Source: a virus
Virus record (IMG/VR): IMGVR_UViG_3300006112_000049
Location: 1 to 25,640 of that record
Length of the DNA: 25,640 nucleotides
Reading direction: 5' to 3' (one strand)
The notes under the pieces were generated by a model, which saw only the letters and a list, made by a program, of their open reading frames with translations, had not been told where the DNA came from and did not search any database. The translations under genes and the position numbers were made by a program. Below, in pieces: positions 8,663 through 25,628 of this stretch. Position 1 is the first letter of the stretch. Every line of letters starts with the position of its first letter.

Positions 8663-9178
8663 ATGGAAAAGTATAAAATATCCCAAAATGACGCCTGGGC
8701 CTGGCGCAAGGCAGGACACAAAGATGTAGAAGACATTTTGGATTTGGTGGCACAAAATTATCAAGACGAAATCAATGGCATACTTGTGCCCAATCGCACA
8801 CGTATGGCTTATCACCTGCATAAGTCAATACTTCAACAAACATTTGAACCGCATCAAGTATTAATCACCCTAGCAAGAGACAAAACAACAAACAAACTAT
8901 TAGCCTGGGCTTGGTTAGAGCGTGGCAAGTATACCGTGTATGCTATGGAAGAACTGGCCACGGCAGAATTTATACACGTGGATTTATCAGCAACTCAAAG
9001 ACAACGTATAACATTGATAGCACAGACATTAGAACAATGGACGGAGTGGTGTCACGCATGGCGCATACCTGTTCTAACCAGCAGTAGCATTAGAGCAGAT
9101 CAACAGGCATTCATGCGCCTGCATGAGCAGTTTGGTTTTCAAGTTAGAGGCAGTATTGCCTACAAGAGGATTGTATGA
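8663..9178 (+). CDS. GNAT-like acetyltransferase-type protein
   Basis: 171 residues, starting MEKYKISQNDAWAWRKAGH. AGGA lies 12 nt before the ATG. Order of elements resembles the GNAT fold: a first helix (DILDLVAQNYQDEINGILV), strand VLITLARDKTTNKLLAWAWL, strand AEFIHVDLSA, a long helix, then SIRADQQAFMRLHEQFGF and a final strand. The C-terminal HEQFGFQ.RG pattern is typical of GNATs. The acetyl-CoA motif Q/R-x-x-G-x-G/A is not clear, so activity is uncertain. Such genes occur in marine phage genomes with unknown targets. First gene of the plus-strand island; overlaps the next gene by four bases (ATGA). Confidence 0.55.
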   Translation: MEKYKISQNDAWAWRKAGHKDVEDILDLVAQNYQDEINGILVPNRTRMAYHLHKSILQQTFEPHQVLITLARDKTTNKLLAWAWLERGKYTVYAMEELATAEFIHVDLSATQRQRITLIAQTLEQWTEWCHAWRIPVLTSSSIRADQQAFMRLHEQFGFQVRGSIAYKRIV

Positions 9179-9607: not shown

Positions 9608-9871
9608 ATGATTCAAGCAGCAAATAAATTTTACGTAATTGAAGCCTTAGGGCGTAGCAAAGAAACAGCAGGTGGTATTATTATTCAAAACACAGATGAA
9701 ACAGAATTGGCACAGATTGTCAGCATTGGACCTGACATAGACAAGAATCCAATTCCTGTGGGCAGTCGTGTTGCTGTTAATTGGAGTAGTGTGGTCAAAC
9801 TAAAAGTTGGCAGAAAAGAATGTTTTGTCATACATGCTGATCATGTATTGGGTGTAGTCAAAGATGATTGA
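9608..9871 (+). CDS. GroES-like co-chaperonin
   Basis: 87 residues, close to the 90-100 of GroES. The mobile-loop GGIII (22-26) matches the GroES G-G-I-V-L tripeptide that contacts GroEL. IVSIGP (37-42), VGSRVAV (51-57) and VIHADHVLGVV (near the end) match the GroES barrel strands. It would cap host GroEL for folding phage proteins, as T4 gp31 does. AAGGAG lies 7 nt upstream. No GroEL is in the window, so host GroEL must be its partner. Second half of the plus-strand island; overlaps the next start in ATGATTGA. Confidence 0.85.
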   Translation: MIQAANKFYVIEALGRSKETAGGIIIQNTDETELAQIVSIGPDIDKNPIPVGSRVAVNWSSVVKLKVGRKECFVIHADHVLGVVKDD

Positions 9872-10022
9872 TCTACAAGACATACGCATTACTACAGATC
9901 CAGATTATCCTGACAAAGTAGAAATTGAAATGTTGGAAAACGGAGTTGGTGTAGAAGGTGGTCAATTTGATTTAGGCCTTTTTATCCAGGCCATCAAACA
10001 ATTTTACCACGCCAACTATTAA
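9864..10022 (+). CDS. 52-aa acidic protein, unknown
   Basis: Reads MIDLQDIRITTDPDYPDKVE onward and ends AIKQFYHANY. The ATG overlaps the GroES-like stop by eight bases (ATGATTGA), the same arrangement as at 7025-7032, supporting translational coupling. The composition is that of a small folded protein (strand IRITTDPD, helix FIQAIKQFY). It ends with TAA at 10020-10022, overlapping the opposite-strand gene's stop. Function unknown. Confidence 0.65.
   Translation: MIDLQDIRITTDPDYPDKVEIEMLENGVGVEGGQFDLGLFIQAIKQFYHANY
9966..10005. terminator. Weak, possibly bidirectional terminator
   Basis: TTTGAT (9966-9971) with ATCAAA (9993-9998) and GGCC (9975-9978) with GGCC (9989-9992), followed on the plus strand by CAATTTT. 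It lies inside the end of the 52-aa gene, where transcription from both sides converges. The stem has an unpaired TTA, so efficiency is doubtful. Confidence 0.3.
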
Positions 10023-10195
10023 TCTGGATCGTATACTTCGCCCTGTATGGCGTACTTGATTTCAATTAAAAGACGTTCCATGTTGGTCAAACGCTGTTCA
10101 ATAGCATTGATTTTTTCAAGTACGCCATCAAAACGTTTGTCGCATTCGCGTATGTGATCTTCTAAACGATATAATTCAACCAATTTACCCACCAC
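10019..10195 (-). CDS. Small coiled-coil protein, unknown
   Basis: 58 residues from GTG 10195 (read M-V-G-K-L-V-E-L-Y), chosen because GAGG lies 5 nt upstream and the start overlaps the Dps stop. Upstream ATGs in this frame lie deep within the Dps gene and have no ribosome binding site. The body is a heptad-like helix (ECDKRFDGVLEKINAIEQRL, MERLLIEIKYAIQG). It may be a partner of the Dps-like protein, but that is inference. Its stop overlaps the plus-strand gene's stop by four bases. Confidence 0.55.
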   Translation of the reverse strand: MVGKLVELYRLEDHIRECDKRFDGVLEKINAIEQRLTNMERLLIEIKYAIQGEVYDPD

Positions 10196-10667
10196 GGCGT
10201 CCTCTGTCAGTATGACGTCCTTCAATTTCCAATGTGGCTTCAATCTTCCAACAGAAGGTGGCAATCCGTTGAATATGATCAGCGGCCATATTGCACACAT
10301 CTGGATAGTTGGCCTCTTGGCCTGCTTCGTCCATTTCATGATACACATCAATCATGGCATACAGGTTATCTAAAGTATCCATTAGGAGACCATCTGCATC
10401 CATGGCAGGCATGGTGTCTTGTATAGCACTTAAGGTTAGGATCATGTCAATGGTTTCTGGCACACGACCAACACCACAGGCCTGAATCTCTTCACCCAGC
10501 ACATCAATGTTCTTTTCCAAGTATTCATAAATTCTTTGTAGTAGTTTGTGGTCACTGACAAAGTTGCGTCCACGTATGTTCATGTGGCTGGCATGAGCAC
10601 GTTGATATGCCACAAAGTTTGAAGCATATACTCGTTCTAATACATCATGTAAATTTTTAAGACTCAT
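10185..10667 (-). CDS. Dps-like miniferritin (ferroxidase)
   Basis: 160 residues, the usual Dps length. H28, H40, D55 and E59 match the spacing (12, 15, 4) of the E. coli Dps ferroxidase residues H51, H63, D78 and E82. They lie in HASHMNIRGRNFVSDHKLL then NIDVLGEEIQACG. The C-terminal helix (DVCNMAADHIQRIATFCWKI) fits the family. Dps forms 12-mers that bind DNA, oxidise Fe2+ with peroxide and store iron. The start is the ATG overlapping the previous stop in ATGA, so it is translated with the ejection-type protein. A phage version could guard injected DNA, sequester iron or travel in the virion; none is proven. Basic tail GRHTDRGRRGG may bind DNA. Confidence 0.85.
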   Translation of the reverse strand: MSLKNLHDVLERVYASNFVAYQRAHASHMNIRGRNFVSDHKLLQRIYEYLEKNIDVLGEEIQACGVGRVPETIDMILTLSAIQDTMPAMDADGLLMDTLDNLYAMIDVYHEMDEAGQEANYPDVCNMAADHIQRIATFCWKIEATLEIEGRHTDRGRRGG

Positions 10668-11680
10668 TGTTGATTACCTATCATGTTATATTGGTGTGCC
10701 ATTGCCCGCATACGGTCAATAAAATTAGTTGAAGTAGGAGCGGCCATTGGACTTTGTCCTCCAGCAATTTGATTTAATCTTTCAGGACCACCATATAAAT
10801 TTATGGTTGCCGCATCACCTGACGCTAAAACATTAGCCGCTTCTTGTGGTTGCAGTTGATATTGTGCACCTGCGGTATGTTGTACATTGCGGAATGCCTG
10901 TTGTGCAATACCACCTTGACCAGCTGCCAAGCGTTTGCCTAGTTCTGCGGCCTGTGCATATTGTGCGGCATCATAGGCATTCATTGCTAGACCAGCTGGA
11001 CCTAAAACTTTACCTGCACCACGTAAAACTGGACCTAAGATTCTAGAAGCTGCACCAGGAATTTCTCCTGCTTGACTTTTTAAAACATTTAAGGCAGCCA
11101 ATGCATCTGCATCATTGGCTAGATATTCTGGTAATTTATAAGTTTCTAAAGCAACTTTTCCACCTTTAGATTTAACAATTTCTCCAAGTGCATTAAGATC
11201 CTCTGGTTTTAATTTTCCAGCAATGGTATTGAATGCAGATGAACTTGCTTCTGGTACAGCACCAGCAACTTGACGACCTTGTTGTAGACTTTCTTTTGCT
11301 GCATTATATACATTGTACAAACCTTTACCAGTTTGAACACTAGCATATGGAGGTGGTATTCCAAAATGCATTGCACCAACATCAATCAATGCTGTAGCTG
11401 GATTTTTTACATAACCACCCAAGGCACCTTTACCAGCTTCAACTAATGGAGTAAGTGTCTGTCCAATAGCTTGTGGATTAATGCCAGTAGGTCCTGGCAC
11501 AGCAAACTGAGGCATTGGAGTTTGTTCTGGTATTTTGTTTATAGTTTGTTTTGTGGTTTTATTTTCACCCAAGAAGGCATCAGGATCAAATCCTTTTGCT
11601 GGTTCATTCTTAATGGTCTTTTCTTCTACAGGTGTAGATGTTTTACCTTCTAGGAATGCATCTGGATCAAAATCACTCAT
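10664..11680 (-). CDS. Putative internal virion / ejection protein
   Basis: 338 residues. The N-terminus has two copies of a DFDPDAFLEG-type motif (about residues 3-12 and 30-39), a feature I associate with internal virion or ejection proteins of short-tailed phages. After a Pro-rich linker follows an Ala/Gly-rich, helical and partly hydrophobic region with GAGKVLGPAGLAMNAYDAAQ. The ATG overlaps the stop of the transglycosylase gene by one base (TAATG). Probably part of the set of proteins expelled with the DNA. Function is inferred from context and motif only. Confidence 0.6.
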   Translation of the reverse strand: MSDFDPDAFLEGKTSTPVEEKTIKNEPAKGFDPDAFLGENKTTKQTINKIPEQTPMPQFAVPGPTGINPQAIGQTLTPLVEAGKGALGGYVKNPATALIDVGAMHFGIPPPYASVQTGKGLYNVYNAAKESLQQGRQVAGAVPEASSSAFNTIAGKLKPEDLNALGEIVKSKGGKVALETYKLPEYLANDADALAALNVLKSQAGEIPGAASRILGPVLRGAGKVLGPAGLAMNAYDAAQYAQAAELGKRLAAGQGGIAQQAFRNVQHTAGAQYQLQPQEAANVLASGDAATINLYGGPERLNQIAGGQSPMAAPTSTNFIDRMRAMAHQYNMIGNQQ

Positions 11681-14166
11681 TAGCTTACACCTAATTTAGC
11701 AAGTATTTGTGGACTACGTTTGTCTTCTGGATGACTCTTTGCCCATTCATATGCGGCCTTCTTATGTTCTTCATCTTGGTCACCAAGCATGTATTTTGGT
11801 TCTGGAGCTTCACCAGCCATTTGACGTTGGCGATTGATACCACGCTTGATTGTGTCAGTAAGGATCTGTGCATTGCGTTTAAATTCTGTTTCGCTAATAC
11901 CAGGATCACTCAAGGCAGCGCGAGCTTTGGTTGCCGCGGCACCTTCTTTGTCACTGATAGCACCACCACCTTTTAATCCGCTGAAAGCATCCAAAAACTC
12001 TTGTCCCATCAACTGATCATATTTGGCTTTCCAGTTACGTGCTTCTGTACCTGGCAATTGTAAATAACCTGTTACGCCTTTTAGACCAACGTTGGTTTCA
12101 AAGCCAGGATGGTTAATAACATCATTGACCGTGTTAAGCATTTGGTCAGCTTGTGCTTGTGTATTAGGTAATGCTTCTTTGATTTTAGCAACATCAGCCG
12201 CATGTTTGGCCAATTCTTCATCATAGGCTTTTTTGCGTGAAGCAAATGCCGCTGGCGGTTCATTAGCAAATGGCACAGGAGGAGCGCCAACACCTGGAAT
12301 ACCAGGATATGGACTTGGAACAGTACCAGCTTGTGGTGTAGGACCTGTTTTTACTTGTGCAGGAGCCGCTTGTGGTGCTTGACCTGGAACAACTGGACCT
12401 GACACTGGAGCAGGTTGTGGTGCCGCTTGTGGAACTACCGCACCACCAGATGTAGGCGTTGCTGTAGGCACTGGTTGTCCACCAGTAACAGGAGCTTGAT
12501 TAGGCGCTGCTGTCATTGGAGCCTGACTATTGATCACTTGTGGTAATGAATAGTTTGTACCATTCTCAGCATTGAATTTGGCCAAGAAATTGGCTTGTTC
12601 TTGCAATGGTTTATTAAGAAGATCATTACGCAAGGTCTGTAACTGTATAATATTTTTCGTCGCTACGTCTGAACCAATTCCGTATGCACGTAAATTGGCA
12701 CTTGAACCAGAATATACTTTACCCTGATTGTCAACTAAGCGTGGACCAAATGGCGTTGTTTGTTCATAATAAATTTCACCAGTAGTAACGTCTTGCATCT
12801 TACCAGTGTGCTGTGTAACACCTTTCATATTTAAGGTGTTGATTAGGTCTTTGCTAGACAATTCACCTTCTGAATTATAACCTTTTACAGGAGCTCCTTG
12901 ACCATTGTATTTGACCCAAGCTGGTTTGCCATCAACTATGGTTTGACCCCACATGTCACCTGCGCCAAGTTTTTGTTGTTCATTTTTGGCTAGGTCAGTT
13001 AAACCTAAACGATGAAACAAATAGGCTTTTAAATAGCTACCTTCTTCGCCTTCTTCTTTAAGAGCACGTTGCATGCCAGCACCGCCGTTGGCAACAATTT
13101 GTTGCACTTTCTTTTCAGCTTCTGCTTGCATTTTATTTTTTTCTAACTGCGTAGCGTGTTCATCAGCATAGGCACGTTTGGTAGCAGGATCAATCAAATG
13201 ATCACCTGCGTAGGTACCTTGACCTAAAGCACTTACATCGCCTGAATTTAATACAATGTGATGTACTGCTTGTTCTTCTGGAGTCATACCAACATCACTG
13301 CTTGGAATACCAGCAATGATAGGACCAATTTTTTTAGTTGTTTTTTCACCAGCTGGCATTACTTTAGCAAGGTAATCTTGTGTTTCTTTTGGAATGTAAT
13401 CTTTCCATGTGCCACCGCGTTGATCAGCGGTCTGCATGGCACGTTCAATTGTGCCAGGGCCTGCATTATAAGCGGCCGCGGCCTTTTCTGGATCTTGACC
13501 AAAATGATTATACATACCTTCAAAGTAGCGTTGACCAAACAACATGTTACCTTGTGGTGTAGCCAATTCTTGTGGAGTAGCAGGAGCTACACCATAGCCT
13601 GGTTGTGCCGCTGTGGTAGGCATGACCTGTGCTATACCAACAGCGCCTTTGGGACTGGTCACAATGGTACCATCTGGATTAAATTGTTGACCACCTGATT
13701 CAGCTTGAATCATACGACCAAATGTACCTTGTGGTGCTTGTGGTGGTGTGTATGGTTGTGGTGCAACAGGAGCAGTTGCTTGTGGCATTTGAGCAGGAGC
13801 ATTAGAAACCTGTGTGGCATTTTGAAATGGTTGCATGCCTGGCACTGGTTGTGGTGCAGGTTGCGGTGTCTGATTTGCCATGGCAGTTTGATAACTGACA
13901 GGCATTGTAGGAGCAATAGGTTGTACAGCAGTCTGTGGTGTTGTAGCCTGTGGCTGACTATTGGTGCCAACGGTTTGTTTATGTGTAACCTCAGCACTAC
14001 CATCTTGATTGTAGTTGATAGTGGTTGATTGTGGTTGCACGTTGGCCTGTGGATTATTGGTGTTGGCACCCAATTGTTGTCCAAAATAGTTGGCAAGAAA
14101 ATCGCCAGTGCTTGCGGCTGGGTTACTGCCCATTTGGTTGCCTATGTATGAAGTTAAAATTCCCAT
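11680..14166 (-). CDS. Ejection-type protein with lytic transglycosylase domain
   Basis: 828 residues. A Pro/Gln-rich head (to about 147) leads to an SLT domain at about 148-270: catalytic E156 in QAESGGQ, KGAVGIAQVMP (173-183), AAYNAGPGTIERA (231-243) and the KDYIPKETQDYLAKV end. This fold cleaves glycan strands in peptidoglycan and is used by tail or internal virion proteins to pierce the cell wall during DNA injection. A middle of unknown fold, a Pro-rich linker (about 560-640) and a helical C-terminal region with LKGGGAISDKEGAAATKARA follow. Such size and layout match internal virion proteins. AAGGAT lies about 6 nt before the ATG. Confidence 0.85.
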   Translation of the reverse strand: MGILTSYIGNQMGSNPAASTGDFLANYFGQQLGANTNNPQANVQPQSTTINYNQDGSAEVTHKQTVGTNSQPQATTPQTAVQPIAPTMPVSYQTAMANQTPQPAPQPVPGMQPFQNATQVSNAPAQMPQATAPVAPQPYTPPQAPQGTFGRMIQAESGGQQFNPDGTIVTSPKGAVGIAQVMPTTAAQPGYGVAPATPQELATPQGNMLFGQRYFEGMYNHFGQDPEKAAAAYNAGPGTIERAMQTADQRGGTWKDYIPKETQDYLAKVMPAGEKTTKKIGPIIAGIPSSDVGMTPEEQAVHHIVLNSGDVSALGQGTYAGDHLIDPATKRAYADEHATQLEKNKMQAEAEKKVQQIVANGGAGMQRALKEEGEEGSYLKAYLFHRLGLTDLAKNEQQKLGAGDMWGQTIVDGKPAWVKYNGQGAPVKGYNSEGELSSKDLINTLNMKGVTQHTGKMQDVTTGEIYYEQTTPFGPRLVDNQGKVYSGSSANLRAYGIGSDVATKNIIQLQTLRNDLLNKPLQEQANFLAKFNAENGTNYSLPQVINSQAPMTAAPNQAPVTGGQPVPTATPTSGGAVVPQAAPQPAPVSGPVVPGQAPQAAPAQVKTGPTPQAGTVPSPYPGIPGVGAPPVPFANEPPAAFASRKKAYDEELAKHAADVAKIKEALPNTQAQADQMLNTVNDVINHPGFETNVGLKGVTGYLQLPGTEARNWKAKYDQLMGQEFLDAFSGLKGGGAISDKEGAAATKARAALSDPGISETEFKRNAQILTDTIKRGINRQRQMAGEAPEPKYMLGDQDEEHKKAAYEWAKSHPEDKRSPQILAKLGVS

Positions 14167-14175
14167 TCTGGATCC

Positions 14176-14922
14176 TTATAGCGTAATGCCAGCGTTGGTT
14201 GAGTTACCTTGTTGACCAGTTGATGTAGTAGAACCAATGGTGCCACTAAATTGTGGATTGGCCTGTTGTGTACCAGCAACGCCACCATATAAATTGGCCA
14301 ATTGTTGTAGGTAACTCAATGGTGCTTGACTTGCTGTTAGACCTGCTTGTGCACCTGTTAGGCCAAGTTGTCCACCTTGTAAACCCAATGAACCAAGGCC
14401 TTGACCTGCTGTCAGTTGTTGGTTGGTGATGTTGTTTAACACTGAGCCAACTGCCTGCTGTTGATTCAACATGTTTTGGCCTGCCAATTGTTGACCTGCC
14501 AAGGCAGCACGGCTTGAACCAATTTGTCCAGCGCCACCAAAGCCTGCATTTTGTGCCGCTATGTTTTGTGCATATTGTTGTTGTGCAGGAATTAGCGCAG
14601 CATTAATTTCAGCTTGTTGATAGGCAGGGCTTGAAATATTGCTTAATGCATTGATACCAGAACTATAAGCACCAGCACCACCTTGTCCTAAATTTTGTGA
14701 TAAGGCATTGCCTGTTTGTGCTAAATTAGTGGCAGCTTGATTTACTCCACCTGCACTTTGATTATACAAATCAGTAGCAGAACCTAACACAGAACCAAGA
14801 CCTTGTGCAGCCTGTGTGCCTAATTGGGCTTGATTACCTATGTATTGTCCTTGTGTGCCACTGATTACGGGGCTGGTAGTAGTGGTCCCACTGCTACTTG
14901 TTTTACCCTGATTATAACTCAT
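14176..14922 (-). CDS. Putative DNA ejection (gp7-like) protein
   Basis: 248 residues, starting MSYNQGKTSSSGTTTTS, rich in Gln, Ala, Gly, Asn and Leu. A repetitive helical middle and the GAGQIGSSRAALAGQQL block resemble DNA-transfer proteins of P22-like phages, which commonly show G-G-S-R-Q-A-type motifs. AAGGAT lies about 8 nt before the ATG and TTAAATA 23 nt upstream. Its position directly before the transglycosylase protein supports an ejection role. Family assignment is tentative. Confidence 0.5.
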   Translation of the reverse strand: MSYNQGKTSSSGTTTTSPVISGTQGQYIGNQAQLGTQAAQGLGSVLGSATDLYNQSAGGVNQAATNLAQTGNALSQNLGQGGAGAYSSGINALSNISSPAYQQAEINAALIPAQQQYAQNIAAQNAGFGGAGQIGSSRAALAGQQLAGQNMLNQQQAVGSVLNNITNQQLTAGQGLGSLGLQGGQLGLTGAQAGLTASQAPLSYLQQLANLYGGVAGTQQANPQFSGTIGSTTSTGQQGNSTNAGITL

Positions 14923-20033: not shown

Positions 20034-23000
20034 TTATGCTACTTTAGTGCCTGGACTACTTACCCATGACCATTGATTGTTGGTTGTGTCCCAATAGGCC
20101 AAACTTCCTCCTGTTTGTCCACCAGTGCTGCCATTGCTGACTGCAACTATCTGACCTGCTACACCTGTTGCGGCCAATTGTGCAACGGTAAACACACCCA
20201 ACTGCATATAACCAGTTGTGGCAGTATTGTTGATTACGATATTACCATTGGTTTGTATTAAGGTAGAGCTGTCTTCGTTCAATACACTATAGGCTCGTTG
20301 TGCACCTGCTGATGCTGTACCAATGGTACCTGCCCAACCTGAAAATGTATGCAGGCCAATAGCGTTCAAACAGGTTAAACTTGAACTGAATGAAGCTACG
20401 CAACCACTAAACAAACGTGCATATTGAATGTTGGCTGTGGCTGTGCCGCCGTTGATGCTATTAAAAGTTATATTACTGAATGAACCAGTAGCATATAACA
20501 CGTTAGCCGTAGCGGCACCTGCAGGAACGACCTGAATACTTCCGCCCACACCAATCACGCTGGATACGTTACCAAATCCATTAATGGTTGTCTGTGGTCC
20601 AGCGGCACCTATGGTTGATGCACCTGCTGTGGCGGTATTAGCCACCATGGGTCCATAAGTTTGGCCAGACATAAACATGTCAAGATATTGACGGCTACCA
20701 TACACACGATCTTGCAGGGTAAACGCATTGCCAGTTTGTGGCCAAAAACCTGAATACAATACTGCACCAGTGGTTATTCTGTTTTGACTGGTTTGACCTG
20801 AACCAGTATAGCTCACGTTGGCAGATTGAACAAATCCAACAGCAATGCTATTTTGAGTTTGATTTGCAGTCTGTGAAGTTGGTGCTGCCAATACACCATT
20901 AACATAAACAGGTGCATAGGTAAATGTGTTGTTACTTAAACTGCCTTTGTAACTGCTACCAAGCGTTGGTGTGCTCAAAGGATAAGCATTGGCAAACACA
21001 CGTTGATTTACACTATCATATAACACTTTGCCTGCCAAATTGCCTGAGAATGATGAATATGAAACACCATTGGCCCAGAATACACCTGAGGTAGTAACAA
21101 TATTACCAAGATTTGCTGTAACACCAGTGGCACCAGAGGTCAAATAAGCTGCTACATTGGCATTGCCATAACTTGAAACAATACCAGTTAAAAATGCTCC
21201 ATTACCAACAAAATAACCACCAACACCATTGGTACCAATGGCAATAATATTACCACCAAAATAATTTATAGAATCATTTGATTGGGCACGTGCAGTTAAA
21301 TTACCTCCATTGACATTGGTATCAGACGCAATAGTAACAAATGCTACACCTGGGTTATAATTAGGTGATGTACTTGGAAGTAATTGAATAGTATCAGATT
21401 TTACTTGGAATTGGCTGGTAGGAACAAGTACTTCACTAGATCCTCCAATGAATACCTGCGTACCTTGTACTATGGTATTGGCCGCATAGGTACTACCTAA
21501 ACTTGCCGTGGTCAAATATGCTGCAACGTTAGTATTGCTATAGGTACTTGGTTGAGCAGGTAGGTTGACCAATTGGCTACCATCACCAACAAAATAATAA
21601 CCTGGTTTGACAATAATATTACCGTTATTAGCAATGACAGCATTTCCATTAGGATCGCCCCCAACAATATTTAGATAACCATTGATACCAACTTCAGTGG
21701 TATCACTGGTATCACCTAATACAATAATACCACCTGCTCCTGAACTTGCTTGAATATCTACGGAACCAACACCTGTAATTGTTGTAGCTCCAGCATTGTT
21801 ATAATTATATCCAGTAATGCTGGTTATATTGGGTTGTGCGGCAGTGGTTAAGGTACCTCCAACACTGGTAAAATATCCTGTGCCAGCAGGATAAAGGAAA
21901 CTGCCTATATCGCCTGTGTAGGTTGGCAAATAAGCGGCCACGTTGGCGTTGCCATAACTACCTGAACCACCACCTGTGTTGGTAATTGTAACTACACCTG
22001 TACCGCCTACAGGACTAATACTGATGCCTGTGCCAGCAATAATTTGGCTTACACCTGATGATCCACCTGCGGAATATGGAGCACCATTGGCCCAATAAAC
22101 ACCTGAGGTAGTAATCAAATTACCTGTTGTAGTTGTTCCAGTGGTATTGGTATTACCGCTGGTGGTTAAATTGGTAATTGTGGCATTGTTGCCATTCAAA
22201 TTACCAGTAACCGTTAGATTACCAAATTGCTGATTGTTTATAGGATTGGTAATGCTGGTTATAAAACGACCTTGTGCGCCATTATAACTGACATAACCAA
22301 CACGAGTTACATAACCTGTTGCTGGTGGATAATTTTGTAATACGCCTGGTGTAGTTGAACTTAGATATAAGCTATCACCAGCTTGATATGATACTAGTAA
22401 AATATTAGCCACTGTACCAGATGAAACCACATAACCATATGATCCAGCTGGAATAGCCTGATTAGCCACACCAGCTACTTGTGCTGATGCTAATGTATTG
22501 CCTTGAGCTAGAGCAATATTAGGCCAAGAACCAAATGCTCCATTGATATAAACAGGAGCACCTTGAACAATAGTTGATCCAGTATTGTTATAGGCTCTAA
22601 ATTGTGTTTCTTGACCAACATTAACTTCATTGTTGGTTACACTATTGTAGTATGATACACTATCTTGTATGCTGTCATACCACATTAGACCCTTGGCATA
22701 AGTGGGATTATTTGGAGTAGACAATGTTATAAATTGGCTAATGTTTACATTGGCTGCTTCAATATTGCCATTGTAGATTGGCAAATACGCGGCCACGTTG
22801 GCATTGCCATAGGTACTACCTGCAGTAATACCAGTTAGATAATATCCATTGCCTGTAAAATATTGTGTGGTACTAATGTTGGCTGTGCTGGTGATAACGT
22901 TTCCAACAATAAAATTAGCATTATTAAAAGTAATATATTTACTTTTGATATCAATATTACCTGTACCTATGGGATCACCATTTGAATGTGTAGACCAAAT

Positions 23001-25628
23001 GCTAACACTTGGTTCTCCTGAAGATCCACAACCATAAATTAAAACAGGACTACCACTAATTTCTGTTGATACTCCATTAGCAAATTGGGTACCTACAAAT
23101 ACAGAATCACCTGATGTTCCAATATTAATTCCACTACCAGCATTGTTAATTTGACCAGTTTGTAATGCACCATAGTTTGTAATACCATTAATAAACAAAG
23201 TAGAGTTGCTTGCTGCAATAGATCCTGGCGTAATTTTTACGCTTGTGCCTCCTGGTGTTCCAACCAATAGGTTTCCAGTAAGACTTGCGGCATTTCCAAG
23301 GAAATATGCAGTACTACCTTGACTACCAACATTACCTGCATAGGTTGGCAAATAAGTGGCCACATTGGAATTGCCATAATTGCTGGTACCAAATGTTATG
23401 TTGGCATAAGTTTCAAATGCACCTACATTGGCGTTTAAGGTATTCAATGCCACAGCTTGAGCAGCCGCATTAGCATTTAAATTACTGATAGTGGGATCTG
23501 TATTGCTGGCTAGGTAAGCGGCAACCTGTGTATTACCATAATTAATAGTTGTTAAAATGCTTACGCCATTGGCAAATAGATAATTGTTAGAATATACCTT
23601 GCCGCTGATAGTATTGTTGGAATACACATTTCCAATATTTGCAGCAGAACCAATAACCCAACCACCAACAGAAGAAAGTGCTTGTAAAACAATGTTACCT
23701 TGTGTAAGATTAATTCCCTGGCCAATTGTCGCATAATTTCCCAATGATGCATTACCAGATACTGATACCTGACTAGAAAAGGTTAATGTGCCAGTAGTAT
23801 TTGACACACCATTGGCATAGGTAAAGTAAGCGATTGCACCACTTGTCTGTGGATAAACGGTCAAAGTATTGGTGGTGCCTAGACTACTACCAATGTTTAA
23901 TATACCATACGATTGTGTAGCATTACCAAAAATATTAACACTGGCTGCATTGATAGTGTTGGTATAAGCAGGTAATAAACTGCTTAATGCTTGTTCAGAC
24001 CCATAACTGGTAAATTCATTTGTACTGGTATTGTAAAATGCCAAATTAAGACTGGTTAATCCTGTGCCAATTGAACGCACTGGACTTACAAAGAAACCAG
24101 AGGTACTTGGATTTAATGCGGCTTCACTGGCATTGAGTGCAATACTTTCAGATGCTTGGTTGGTTTGACCAGCATACTGACCAATAGCAACAGCACCACC
24201 ACCTTGATTAGTTTGGCCAGCGGCATAACCAATGGCAACAGAATATTCGCTTGATCCACTTTCTTGTGCAAAGGTACCAATAGCAACTGATTGTGATTGT
24301 ATTTGTCCGCCTGCTTGTTGTCCAATAGCAACTGCACTACCACCTCCGCTTACAGCGGCATTACCAGCACCTTGACCAATATAAACACTATTAGTGTTTA
24401 ATCCATTGCCTGCGTTTTCACCAATGCTTACGCCTGTGCCTGTTGGATATGCATTTGCACCAAGACCAATAATAACAGGATTAATGCTCTTTAATGCAGT
24501 AACCACATTGGCATTTATTCCACTAATAATGCTGTTAATTTCAGTTTGTTGTACAGCGGCATTACTAAACAATGTGTTGATTTGTGTTGCTTGTACAGCG
24601 GCATTGGCATTTAAATTACTGATTGTTGGATCAGTGTTGCCTGCTAGGTAAGCGGCTGTTGCTGCTTGATTAAAATAACCTGAGCCATTGGCAAAGAAAA
24701 ATCCATTACTATAAACATCTGCAGCCCATACGTTACCAGCAACACCCAACCCACCATACGTGATAATGGCACCTGTACCTGTGCTGGTACTTGGTGTTGT
24801 TGAGTTTGCTATGATTGTGGTTGTAACAATAGTATTGATATTGGTAAAGAATACATTGCCAGCAAGATTTAAATTACCAGAAACGGTTAAATTACCAGCA
24901 GACAAGTTACCTGTATAGGTACTTAAATAACCTGGCATGTAGGCCGCTACGTTAGAGTTGCCATAATTTGAACTGGCAAAAGGAGTACCATTTGACCAAA
25001 ATATGCCATTGCTTACAACAACATTAGCAGAATTTACACTACCAGCATTGTTGATATTGCCATAGTTGGTCAAACTGCCTTGGTTAATAATATTGTTTTG
25101 ATTGTTGATGGTACCTGTATAGATACTGCCTAACAAGTATGCAGCCAATTGTGTGTTGCCATACACTTCACTTTGTAGTATGGCTACGTTTGATATAATA
25201 CTGGCAATAGTAGGATCACCTGGCAAATAAGTTGCCACATTGCTAACGGTAACACTTTCTACGCGACCTTTGGCATCAACCGTAATAACAGGAATTAAAC
25301 TATTGGATCCATAGGTGCCTGCAGTAACAGCAGTATTGCTTAATGTGGTAGTAATACTATTGCCAACAAAACCAAAACCTGTAACGTCGCCTACCAATCG
25401 CAAAGAAAGATTACCACTTGGTCCGCCAACGTTGGATACAAAGGCCTCAACTTGGCTATAACCAGTTGCAGGATCCAATTGGAAATAAACCGTACCGTTG
25501 TTGCTTAACAAATCTAATAATTGTTGAGCATTACTGATGATTGGTGAAGCACCAGAATTGATATACAATCCTGGAGTATTAGCAACGGCTACGTTAGCGT
25601 TACCTGTAATTCCATACAAACCTGGCAT
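20034..25628 (-). CDS. Giant tail fibre protein, YadA-like and NVAAYL repeats
   Basis: 1864 residues, starting MPGLYGITGNANVAVANTPG. AAGGA lies 7 nt before the ATG. Residues about 100-130 hold VTAGTYGSNSLIPVITVDAK, a common marine phage fibre segment. Residues about 275-300 hold GTGAIITYGGLGVAGNVWA. A YadA-head-type region at about 398-505 has SVAIG/AVAIG repeats with x-AG turns. Throughout there are at least eight YGNxNVAAYLP-type modules with WANG.PY. The C-terminus contains LAYWDTTNNQWSWVS, typical of marine fibres. It probably forms a trimeric fibre that binds host surface. No chaperone domain is apparent. Repeats are a likely hotspot for recombination. Confidence 0.85.
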   Translation of the reverse strand: MPGLYGITGNANVAVANTPGLYINSGASPIISNAQQLLDLLSNNGTVYFQLDPATGYSQVEAFVSNVGGPSGNLSLRLVGDVTGFGFVGNSITTTLSNTAVTAGTYGSNSLIPVITVDAKGRVESVTVSNVATYLPGDPTIASIISNVAILQSEVYGNTQLAAYLLGSIYTGTINNQNNIINQGSLTNYGNINNAGSVNSANVVVSNGIFWSNGTPFASSNYGNSNVAAYMPGYLSTYTGNLSAGNLTVSGNLNLAGNVFFTNINTIVTTTIIANSTTPSTSTGTGAIITYGGLGVAGNVWAADVYSNGFFFANGSGYFNQAATAAYLAGNTDPTISNLNANAAVQATQINTLFSNAAVQQTEINSIISGINANVVTALKSINPVIIGLGANAYPTGTGVSIGENAGNGLNTNSVYIGQGAGNAAVSGGGSAVAIGQQAGGQIQSQSVAIGTFAQESGSSEYSVAIGYAAGQTNQGGGAVAIGQYAGQTNQASESIALNASEAALNPSTSGFFVSPVRSIGTGLTSLNLAFYNTSTNEFTSYGSEQALSSLLPAYTNTINAASVNIFGNATQSYGILNIGSSLGTTNTLTVYPQTSGAIAYFTYANGVSNTTGTLTFSSQVSVSGNASLGNYATIGQGINLTQGNIVLQALSSVGGWVIGSAANIGNVYSNNTISGKVYSNNYLFANGVSILTTINYGNTQVAAYLASNTDPTISNLNANAAAQAVALNTLNANVGAFETYANITFGTSNYGNSNVATYLPTYAGNVGSQGSTAYFLGNAASLTGNLLVGTPGGTSVKITPGSIAASNSTLFINGITNYGALQTGQINNAGSGINIGTSGDSVFVGTQFANGVSTEISGSPVLIYGCGSSGEPSVSIWSTHSNGDPIGTGNIDIKSKYITFNNANFIVGNVITSTANISTTQYFTGNGYYLTGITAGSTYGNANVAAYLPIYNGNIEAANVNISQFITLSTPNNPTYAKGLMWYDSIQDSVSYYNSVTNNEVNVGQETQFRAYNNTGSTIVQGAPVYINGAFGSWPNIALAQGNTLASAQVAGVANQAIPAGSYGYVVSSGTVANILLVSYQAGDSLYLSSTTPGVLQNYPPATGYVTRVGYVSYNGAQGRFITSITNPINNQQFGNLTVTGNLNGNNATITNLTTSGNTNTTGTTTTGNLITTSGVYWANGAPYSAGGSSGVSQIIAGTGISISPVGGTGVVTITNTGGGSGSYGNANVAAYLPTYTGDIGSFLYPAGTGYFTSVGGTLTTAAQPNITSITGYNYNNAGATTITGVGSVDIQASSGAGGIIVLGDTSDTTEVGINGYLNIVGGDPNGNAVIANNGNIIVKPGYYFVGDGSQLVNLPAQPSTYSNTNVAAYLTTASLGSTYAANTIVQGTQVFIGGSSEVLVPTSQFQVKSDTIQLLPSTSPNYNPGVAFVTIASDTNVNGGNLTARAQSNDSINYFGGNIIAIGTNGVGGYFVGNGAFLTGIVSSYGNANVAAYLTSGATGVTANLGNIVTTSGVFWANGVSYSSFSGNLAGKVLYDSVNQRVFANAYPLSTPTLGSSYKGSLSNNTFTYAPVYVNGVLAAPTSQTANQTQNSIAVGFVQSANVSYTGSGQTSQNRITTGAVLYSGFWPQTGNAFTLQDRVYGSRQYLDMFMSGQTYGPMVANTATAGASTIGAAGPQTTINGFGNVSSVIGVGGSIQVVPAGAATANVLYATGSFSNITFNSINGGTATANIQYARLFSGCVASFSSSLTCLNAIGLHTFSGWAGTIGTASAGAQRAYSVLNEDSSTLIQTNGNIVINNTATTGYMQLGVFTVAQLAATGVAGQIVAVSNGSTGGQTGGSLAYWDTTNNQWSWVSSPGTKVA

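Follow-up and report, generated by a model that had tools for sequence, protein, structure and literature searches.

The dps locus and its gene neighbourhood

The dps gene lies on the minus strand of the virus record IMGVR_UViG_3300006112_000049, the whole of which (25,640 bases) was analysed and is called the window here. The ORF starts with ATG, fills exactly the region spanning 10,185–10,667 and encodes a 160-aa protein of the Dps miniferritin family, an assignment supported by family, fold and PDB matches. A sequence-only reading of the window had placed a Dps gene at this position without giving its strand, and the ORF was found to be real. Directly upstream on the same strand is the gene of a 338-aa Ala/Gly-rich protein (10,664–11,680), which has no family match and whose N-terminal part is swapped between relatives; its stop codon (TGA) and the ATG of dps overlap as ATGA at 10,664–10,667. 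Further upstream, again on the minus strand, are the gene of an 828-aa putative ejection protein with an SLT transglycosylase domain identified by family profiles (11,680–14,166), the C-terminal stretch of which resembles PHROG_2534, “released from the phage upon host infection,” and the gene of a 248-aa Gln/Ala/Gly-rich protein (14,176–14,922), which holds the same slot in all the relatives' loci that reach it. Downstream of dps, the minus strand carries a gene for a short predicted coiled-coil protein (10,019–10,210, start approximate), which is found in most of the relatives and is mostly 52–71 aa long. The gene of a GroES-like co-chaperonin on the plus strand (9,608–9,871; Cpn10 2.4e-6, PHROG_3188 8e-12) is convergent to dps and belongs to a conserved cassette. 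In most relatives, this GroES-like gene is accompanied by a gene in the GNAT slot (8,663–9,178 in the window), which itself has no significant family match. At 10,019–10,022, the stop codon of the coiled-coil gene overlaps that of a short ORF on the plus strand, and homologues of a short gene in the corresponding place occur among the relatives. Elsewhere in the window, a 1,864-aa putative fibre protein (20,034–25,628, minus strand) contains many repeats of a GNxNVAAYLP-like motif.

Wherever the contigs of the relatives reach, the order was found to be SLT gene, variable gene, dps, usually the coiled-coil gene and then the convergent GroES/GNAT cassette, with a recognisable coiled-coil or GroES-like gene being absent in some distant members. 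The gene directly before dps has several unrelated N-termini and codes for 204–362 aa among the relatives, and the distance from the upstream stop to dps varies between a 4-base overlap and a 12-base gap. This variable distance rules out a conserved ATGA coupling. Thus, the ATGA junction that the sequence-only reading had emphasised is present in the window but is a local feature, and dps is tied to its place and not to a partner. The placement of dps with ejection genes stood in so far as the gene lies in a virion gene block, although the gene directly upstream is without a family and the ejection-like domain is found one gene earlier. A promoter and terminator scan, which used consensus matches only and gave promoters below the shuffled expectation, showed no site separating dps from the upstream gene.

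The window protein was matched by the NCBIfam Dps profile (9e-7) and by PHROG_3636, a family of phage Dps, which covered residues 2–146 of the 160 with an E of 3.2e-22. Its match to Pfam PF00210 Ferritin (7e-5) reached 23.2 bits and is therefore just below the gathering cut-off of 24.5 bits; five relatives exceed this cut-off, and all 24 aligned family members match Pfam Ferritin with E up to 0.01. Helicobacter NapA and other Dps proteins in the PDB were matched at 3e-7 with the single sequence and at 2e-10 with the profile. When the window protein was searched by tblastn against annotated phages, no match was obtained at E 0.01, and cultured phages were reached by the search only via a divergent relative (L017). 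The centre of the DpsL protein PA4880 is formed by ExxH motifs inside the four-helix bundle (E80/H83 and E162/H165; PMC11150526), and no such motifs for bacterioferritin-type ligands were found in helices B or D of the window sequence. No match to defence families was obtained for dps. The window gene encodes a Dps-type miniferritin. An assembly artefact, a chance ORF or a bacterial gene misjoined to a phage contig would be at odds with the same gene order seen in at least 15 distinct loci on separate metagenome contigs, with the signs of purifying selection described below and with the finding that scans of 84,980 species genomes with two peptide patterns (P0001 and L046) returned no bacterial or prophage relative; nothing spoke for such an origin, and its probability is considered negligible.

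Fold and ferroxidase centre of the predicted subunit

The AlphaFold monomer model made from 24 relatives had a pLDDT of 91.6 and a pTM of 0.87. Its helices span residues 3–30, 36–64, 73–79, 91–118 and 122–146, which gives four long helices and a short one (73–79) in the B–C loop, the latter being a hallmark of Dps according to the authors of the PA4880 study (PMC11150526). Subunits of Dps, Dpr, NapA and MrgA occupied the top PDB ranks in Foldseek, and the model agreed with B. subtilis MrgA (Foldseek TM 0.86/0.94, rmsd 1.3 Å) and with S. suis Dpr (VIA-align Z 22.1, rmsd 1.5 Å over 150 residues). The VIA-align Z values against Dps subunits were well above the stated background, helical bundles often giving middling Z values. 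The confidence fell at the C-terminal tail, where residues 153–160 had a pLDDT below 50. A model from 13 close relatives was badly packed (pLDDT 71.7, pTM 0.49), with a whole-chain rmsd near 18 Å to Dps, and was superseded by the 24-sequence model. The sequence-only reading had pointed to structure prediction as a check, and the monomer so obtained has the Dps fold and not a non-ferritin one.

The four ligands named in that reading, H28, H40, D55 and E59, were all found at the Dps spacing (12/27/31). They are encoded on the minus strand at 10,584–10,586, 10,548–10,550, 10,503–10,505 and 10,491–10,493, respectively, and correspond to H51, H63, D78 and E82 of E. coli Dps. The same spacings separate H37, H49, D64 and E68, which are the ligands in the iron-bound structure of P. 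aeruginosa Dps (PMC10002758). All the four residues are invariant in 24 phage sequences and 7 bacterial Dps. The alignment of the 24 phage sequences (A4), whose most distant members are 17–22% identical to the window protein, has only seven invariant columns and four of these are the ligands, for which the chance is about 1e-6 by a hypergeometric count.

The canonical Dps centre has five ligands, of which the fifth is D/E67 and belongs to site B (PMC6675082). In the tree alignment, the position of E. coli D67 is occupied by Q44 in the window protein (codon at 10,536–10,538, minus strand); K, Q, G or N is found there in 17 of 17 clade members, and D or E in 7/7 bacterial sequences and 7/8 other phage Dps. 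In addition, in place of the Trp that normally follows the first His (HWN), 16 of the 17 clade members have Met, Ile or Val; the window protein has Met. The description of the centre as intact was thus an overstatement because one canonical ligand and the neighbouring Trp are both replaced. In P. aeruginosa Dps, two irons are bound by the four-ligand set and the protein is active with H2O2 (PMC10002758), and Nostoc Dps4, which has Asn67 and no ligand there, yet oxidises Fe with O2, has gained two extra His (PMC6675082). As the former uses the same four ligands and the latter works without a ligand at 67, iron oxidation by the window Dps is plausible by analogy. The existence of active Dps without carboxylate 67 means that Q44 excludes the window protein from the canonical five-ligand subclass, not from Dps overall. 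With one canonical ligand and the centre-side Trp lost, its activity could therefore be low or altered.

The C-terminal end of the protein carries the basic tail RHTDRGRRGG (10,188–10,217, minus strand), which falls in the low-confidence end of the model and had been suggested to bind DNA. The tail is present, and a short basic C-tail is found in the window group, but a role for it as a DNA-binding device is not supported across the family. It is missing in L041–L045, a different extension is found in L046, and in L019 it is degenerate and neutral. Furthermore, the window Dps is acidic overall, with a pI of 4.9 and a net charge of about −11. Since the tail is missing or degenerate in distant relatives and the protein is acidic, DNA binding as a clade-wide trait appears unsupported.

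Conservation and proposed function of the phage Dps

The divergence of dps was compared among four contigs of ~36 kb. The identities between G001 and the three other contigs were 85, 72 and 61% for dps; 84, 79 and 79% for terminase; 84, 76 and 74% for portal; 84, 73 and 71% for the major head protein; and 53, 28 and 27% for GroES. Thus, dps was above GroES and most of the SLT gene and shows a slow divergence comparable to that of terminase, portal and capsid. The dN/dS of dps was mostly 0.04–0.16 where dS could be estimated and 0.23 in one pair, values that are rough because dS is high or saturated, and they indicate that the gene is under purifying selection. In one locus (L015:6001-6471), dps was 67% identical to that of the window and the flanks were 61–87% identical (SLT 78%, GNAT slot 87%). 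Several neighbouring genes are thus closer to the window than dps is, a pattern which suggests that dps alleles have been exchanged between related phages. In a tree of 17 clade, 7 bacterial and 8 other phage sequences, the window Dps clade, which comes from a group of uncultured phages, was monophyletic with 100/100 support and a long stem, and support for where it joins the bacterial and other phage Dps was low (40/74).

We propose, with a probability of roughly two in three, that dps encodes a ferroxidase cage which is made late, shields phage DNA from iron and peroxide and is possibly carried in virions. The Dps subunits would assemble into a 12-subunit cage, in which iron would be bound at each dimer interface by H28 and H40 from one subunit together with D55 and E59 from its partner, and the second iron site would be the one chiefly weakened by the missing fifth ligand (position 44). 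Fe(II) would be taken into the cage, oxidised with H2O2 or O2 and stored as Fe(III), and newly made phage DNA would then meet less Fenton chemistry. As its gene closes the virion block, Dps would be made late in infection, and some of it may exit in the virion.

A different emphasis would make Dps a virion cargo that goes into the head along with the ejection proteins and acts, in the virion or in the next host, by protecting the genome from iron-driven damage or by handling iron at entry. Such a role agrees with where dps lies in the relatives, namely directly behind the SLT ejection gene, and mass spectrometry found Dps in the CsCl-purified virions of two phages, Privateer (PMC7881722) and Lactobacillus brevis phage 521B (6 peptides, 48% coverage; PMC6563214); the Dps of SU10 was detected in a cruder PEG-only preparation (PMC4281155). 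Furthermore, among the viral structure matches are proteins named “Prohead protease” with stretches of Dps fold, described below. On the other hand, dps lies among replication genes in Privateer, GAP52, 7-11 and Aeromonas phage 4_4572, so that its position does not predict presence in the virion, and the place beside ejection genes does not show co-function because the gene immediately upstream changes among relatives while dps stays. An intact Dps cage measures ~9 nm and, if folded, could not pass the portal. The Dps in published virion preparations may also be contamination, given the size of the cages and the DNA binding of some Dps; no follow-up of the Dps found in purified virions was met in the literature searched. 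We therefore regard virion cargo as a tentative explanation, with the odds somewhat against it. Packaging of Dps in virions of the window clade, which by analogy gains support from the mass spectrometry of other phages' virion preparations, comes close to an even chance. The narrower proposal, in which a Dps with a modified four-ligand centre belongs to the ejection module, is packaged and is delivered with the genome as a virion-borne antioxidant against iron and peroxide at entry, is unlikely.

The role could instead be purely intracellular, with late Dps lowering free iron and peroxide in the dying host and having no function in the particle. Such host support was proposed by Benler 2021 for gut-phage Dps and catalases (PMC8008677) and by Kyrkou 2019 for L. 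plantarum phages, and YerA41 infection induces the host dps early, to a level that places it among the most induced genes (PMC7354516). It is a possible explanation to which we give a little less than half of our confidence, and it leaves unexplained both the fixed place of dps inside the virion block and the Dps in CsCl-purified virions of other phages. That the clade has lost the D/E67 ligand and the Trp might also indicate that the ferritin fold has been reused as a structural or DNA-binding part, with the ferroxidase activity reduced or gone. The retention of the other four ligands among the seven invariant columns argues against this reuse, and the net charge and the lack of a conserved basic tail argue against its DNA-binding form, and it is considered quite improbable. 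The late-made ferroxidase cage is the reading that we prefer. With a dps gene that lies in the ejection block and almost matches the head genes in conservation, the clade raises the testable question whether phages carry an iron-detoxifying cage of their own, and its lack of one canonical ligand provides a natural experiment on the role of that residue.

Relation to known Dps systems

Dps-like genes in phages had been thought rare in the sequence-only reading, and this could not be upheld. When tblastn was run with the GAP52 Dps, a relative was found in 137 annotated phage records, mostly phiEco32-like; PHROG_3636 exists as a family; and Dps genes have been reported in gut phages by Benler 2021 (PMC8008677) and in L. 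plantarum phages by Kyrkou 2019. Phage Dps is thus widespread, and it has been detected in purified virions of two unrelated phages. In public records, the Dps genes of phiEco32-like phages (e.g., MN508615 and OK148440) are often labelled “integrase” or “hypothetical protein.”

The PHROG_3636 phages include phiEco32, SU10, Cronobacter GAP52, Salmonella 7-11, Proteus Privateer and the Aeromonas LAh phages. Their Dps have the Dps fold and the four ligands in common with the window Dps, but they are 16–23% identical to it and keep both D at 67 and HWN. Their dps gene is in the replication region, as described above for Privateer, GAP52 and 7-11, whereas the window dps is in the virion block, and the window clade is separate from the PHROG_3636 phages with 100/100 support. 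The P. aeruginosa Dps PA0962 resembles the window model (VIA-align Z 21.0, rmsd 1.7 Å over 147 residues) and has the same ligand spacing, but it is about 18% identical, is encoded by a bacterial gene and has an interface Tyr network (PMC10002758). In Gratiaviridae, L. plantarum phages and Lb. brevis phage 521B, Dps is phage encoded as in the window, but these belong to other phage families, and the dps genes of the L. plantarum phages and LpeD are not in an ejection block, unlike the window dps.

A likeness was also found to Pfam DUF5856/PHROG_858. The hhalign comparison of A4 with a DUF5856 member gave a probability of 96.9 and an E of 1.8e-10, and DUF5856 was matched by 13 of the 24 A4 members. 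The member L020 (L020:6013-6372) differs from the window protein in having 120 aa, a deletion between the two His and no Ferritin-domain match. The motif YPDVCNMA and the ligand columns are shared with the window family, and from these alignments DUF5856/PHROG_858 looks like a shortened Dps relative. Among the BFVD entries, A0A6J7XDU5, A0A6J7WPK9 and A0A6J7WIS1 have Dps-fold stretches in 333–763-aa uncultured-phage proteins named “Prohead protease.” A fusion of Dps to a head-maturation protein is possible in these predicted structures, and no paper on a Dps-prohead protease fusion was found.

Since Dps genes are already known in other phages, the window dps is a variant and not a new system. 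What is particular here is the monophyletic Dps clade with its non-canonical centre and the fixed position of dps after the gene of an SLT-domain putative ejection protein.
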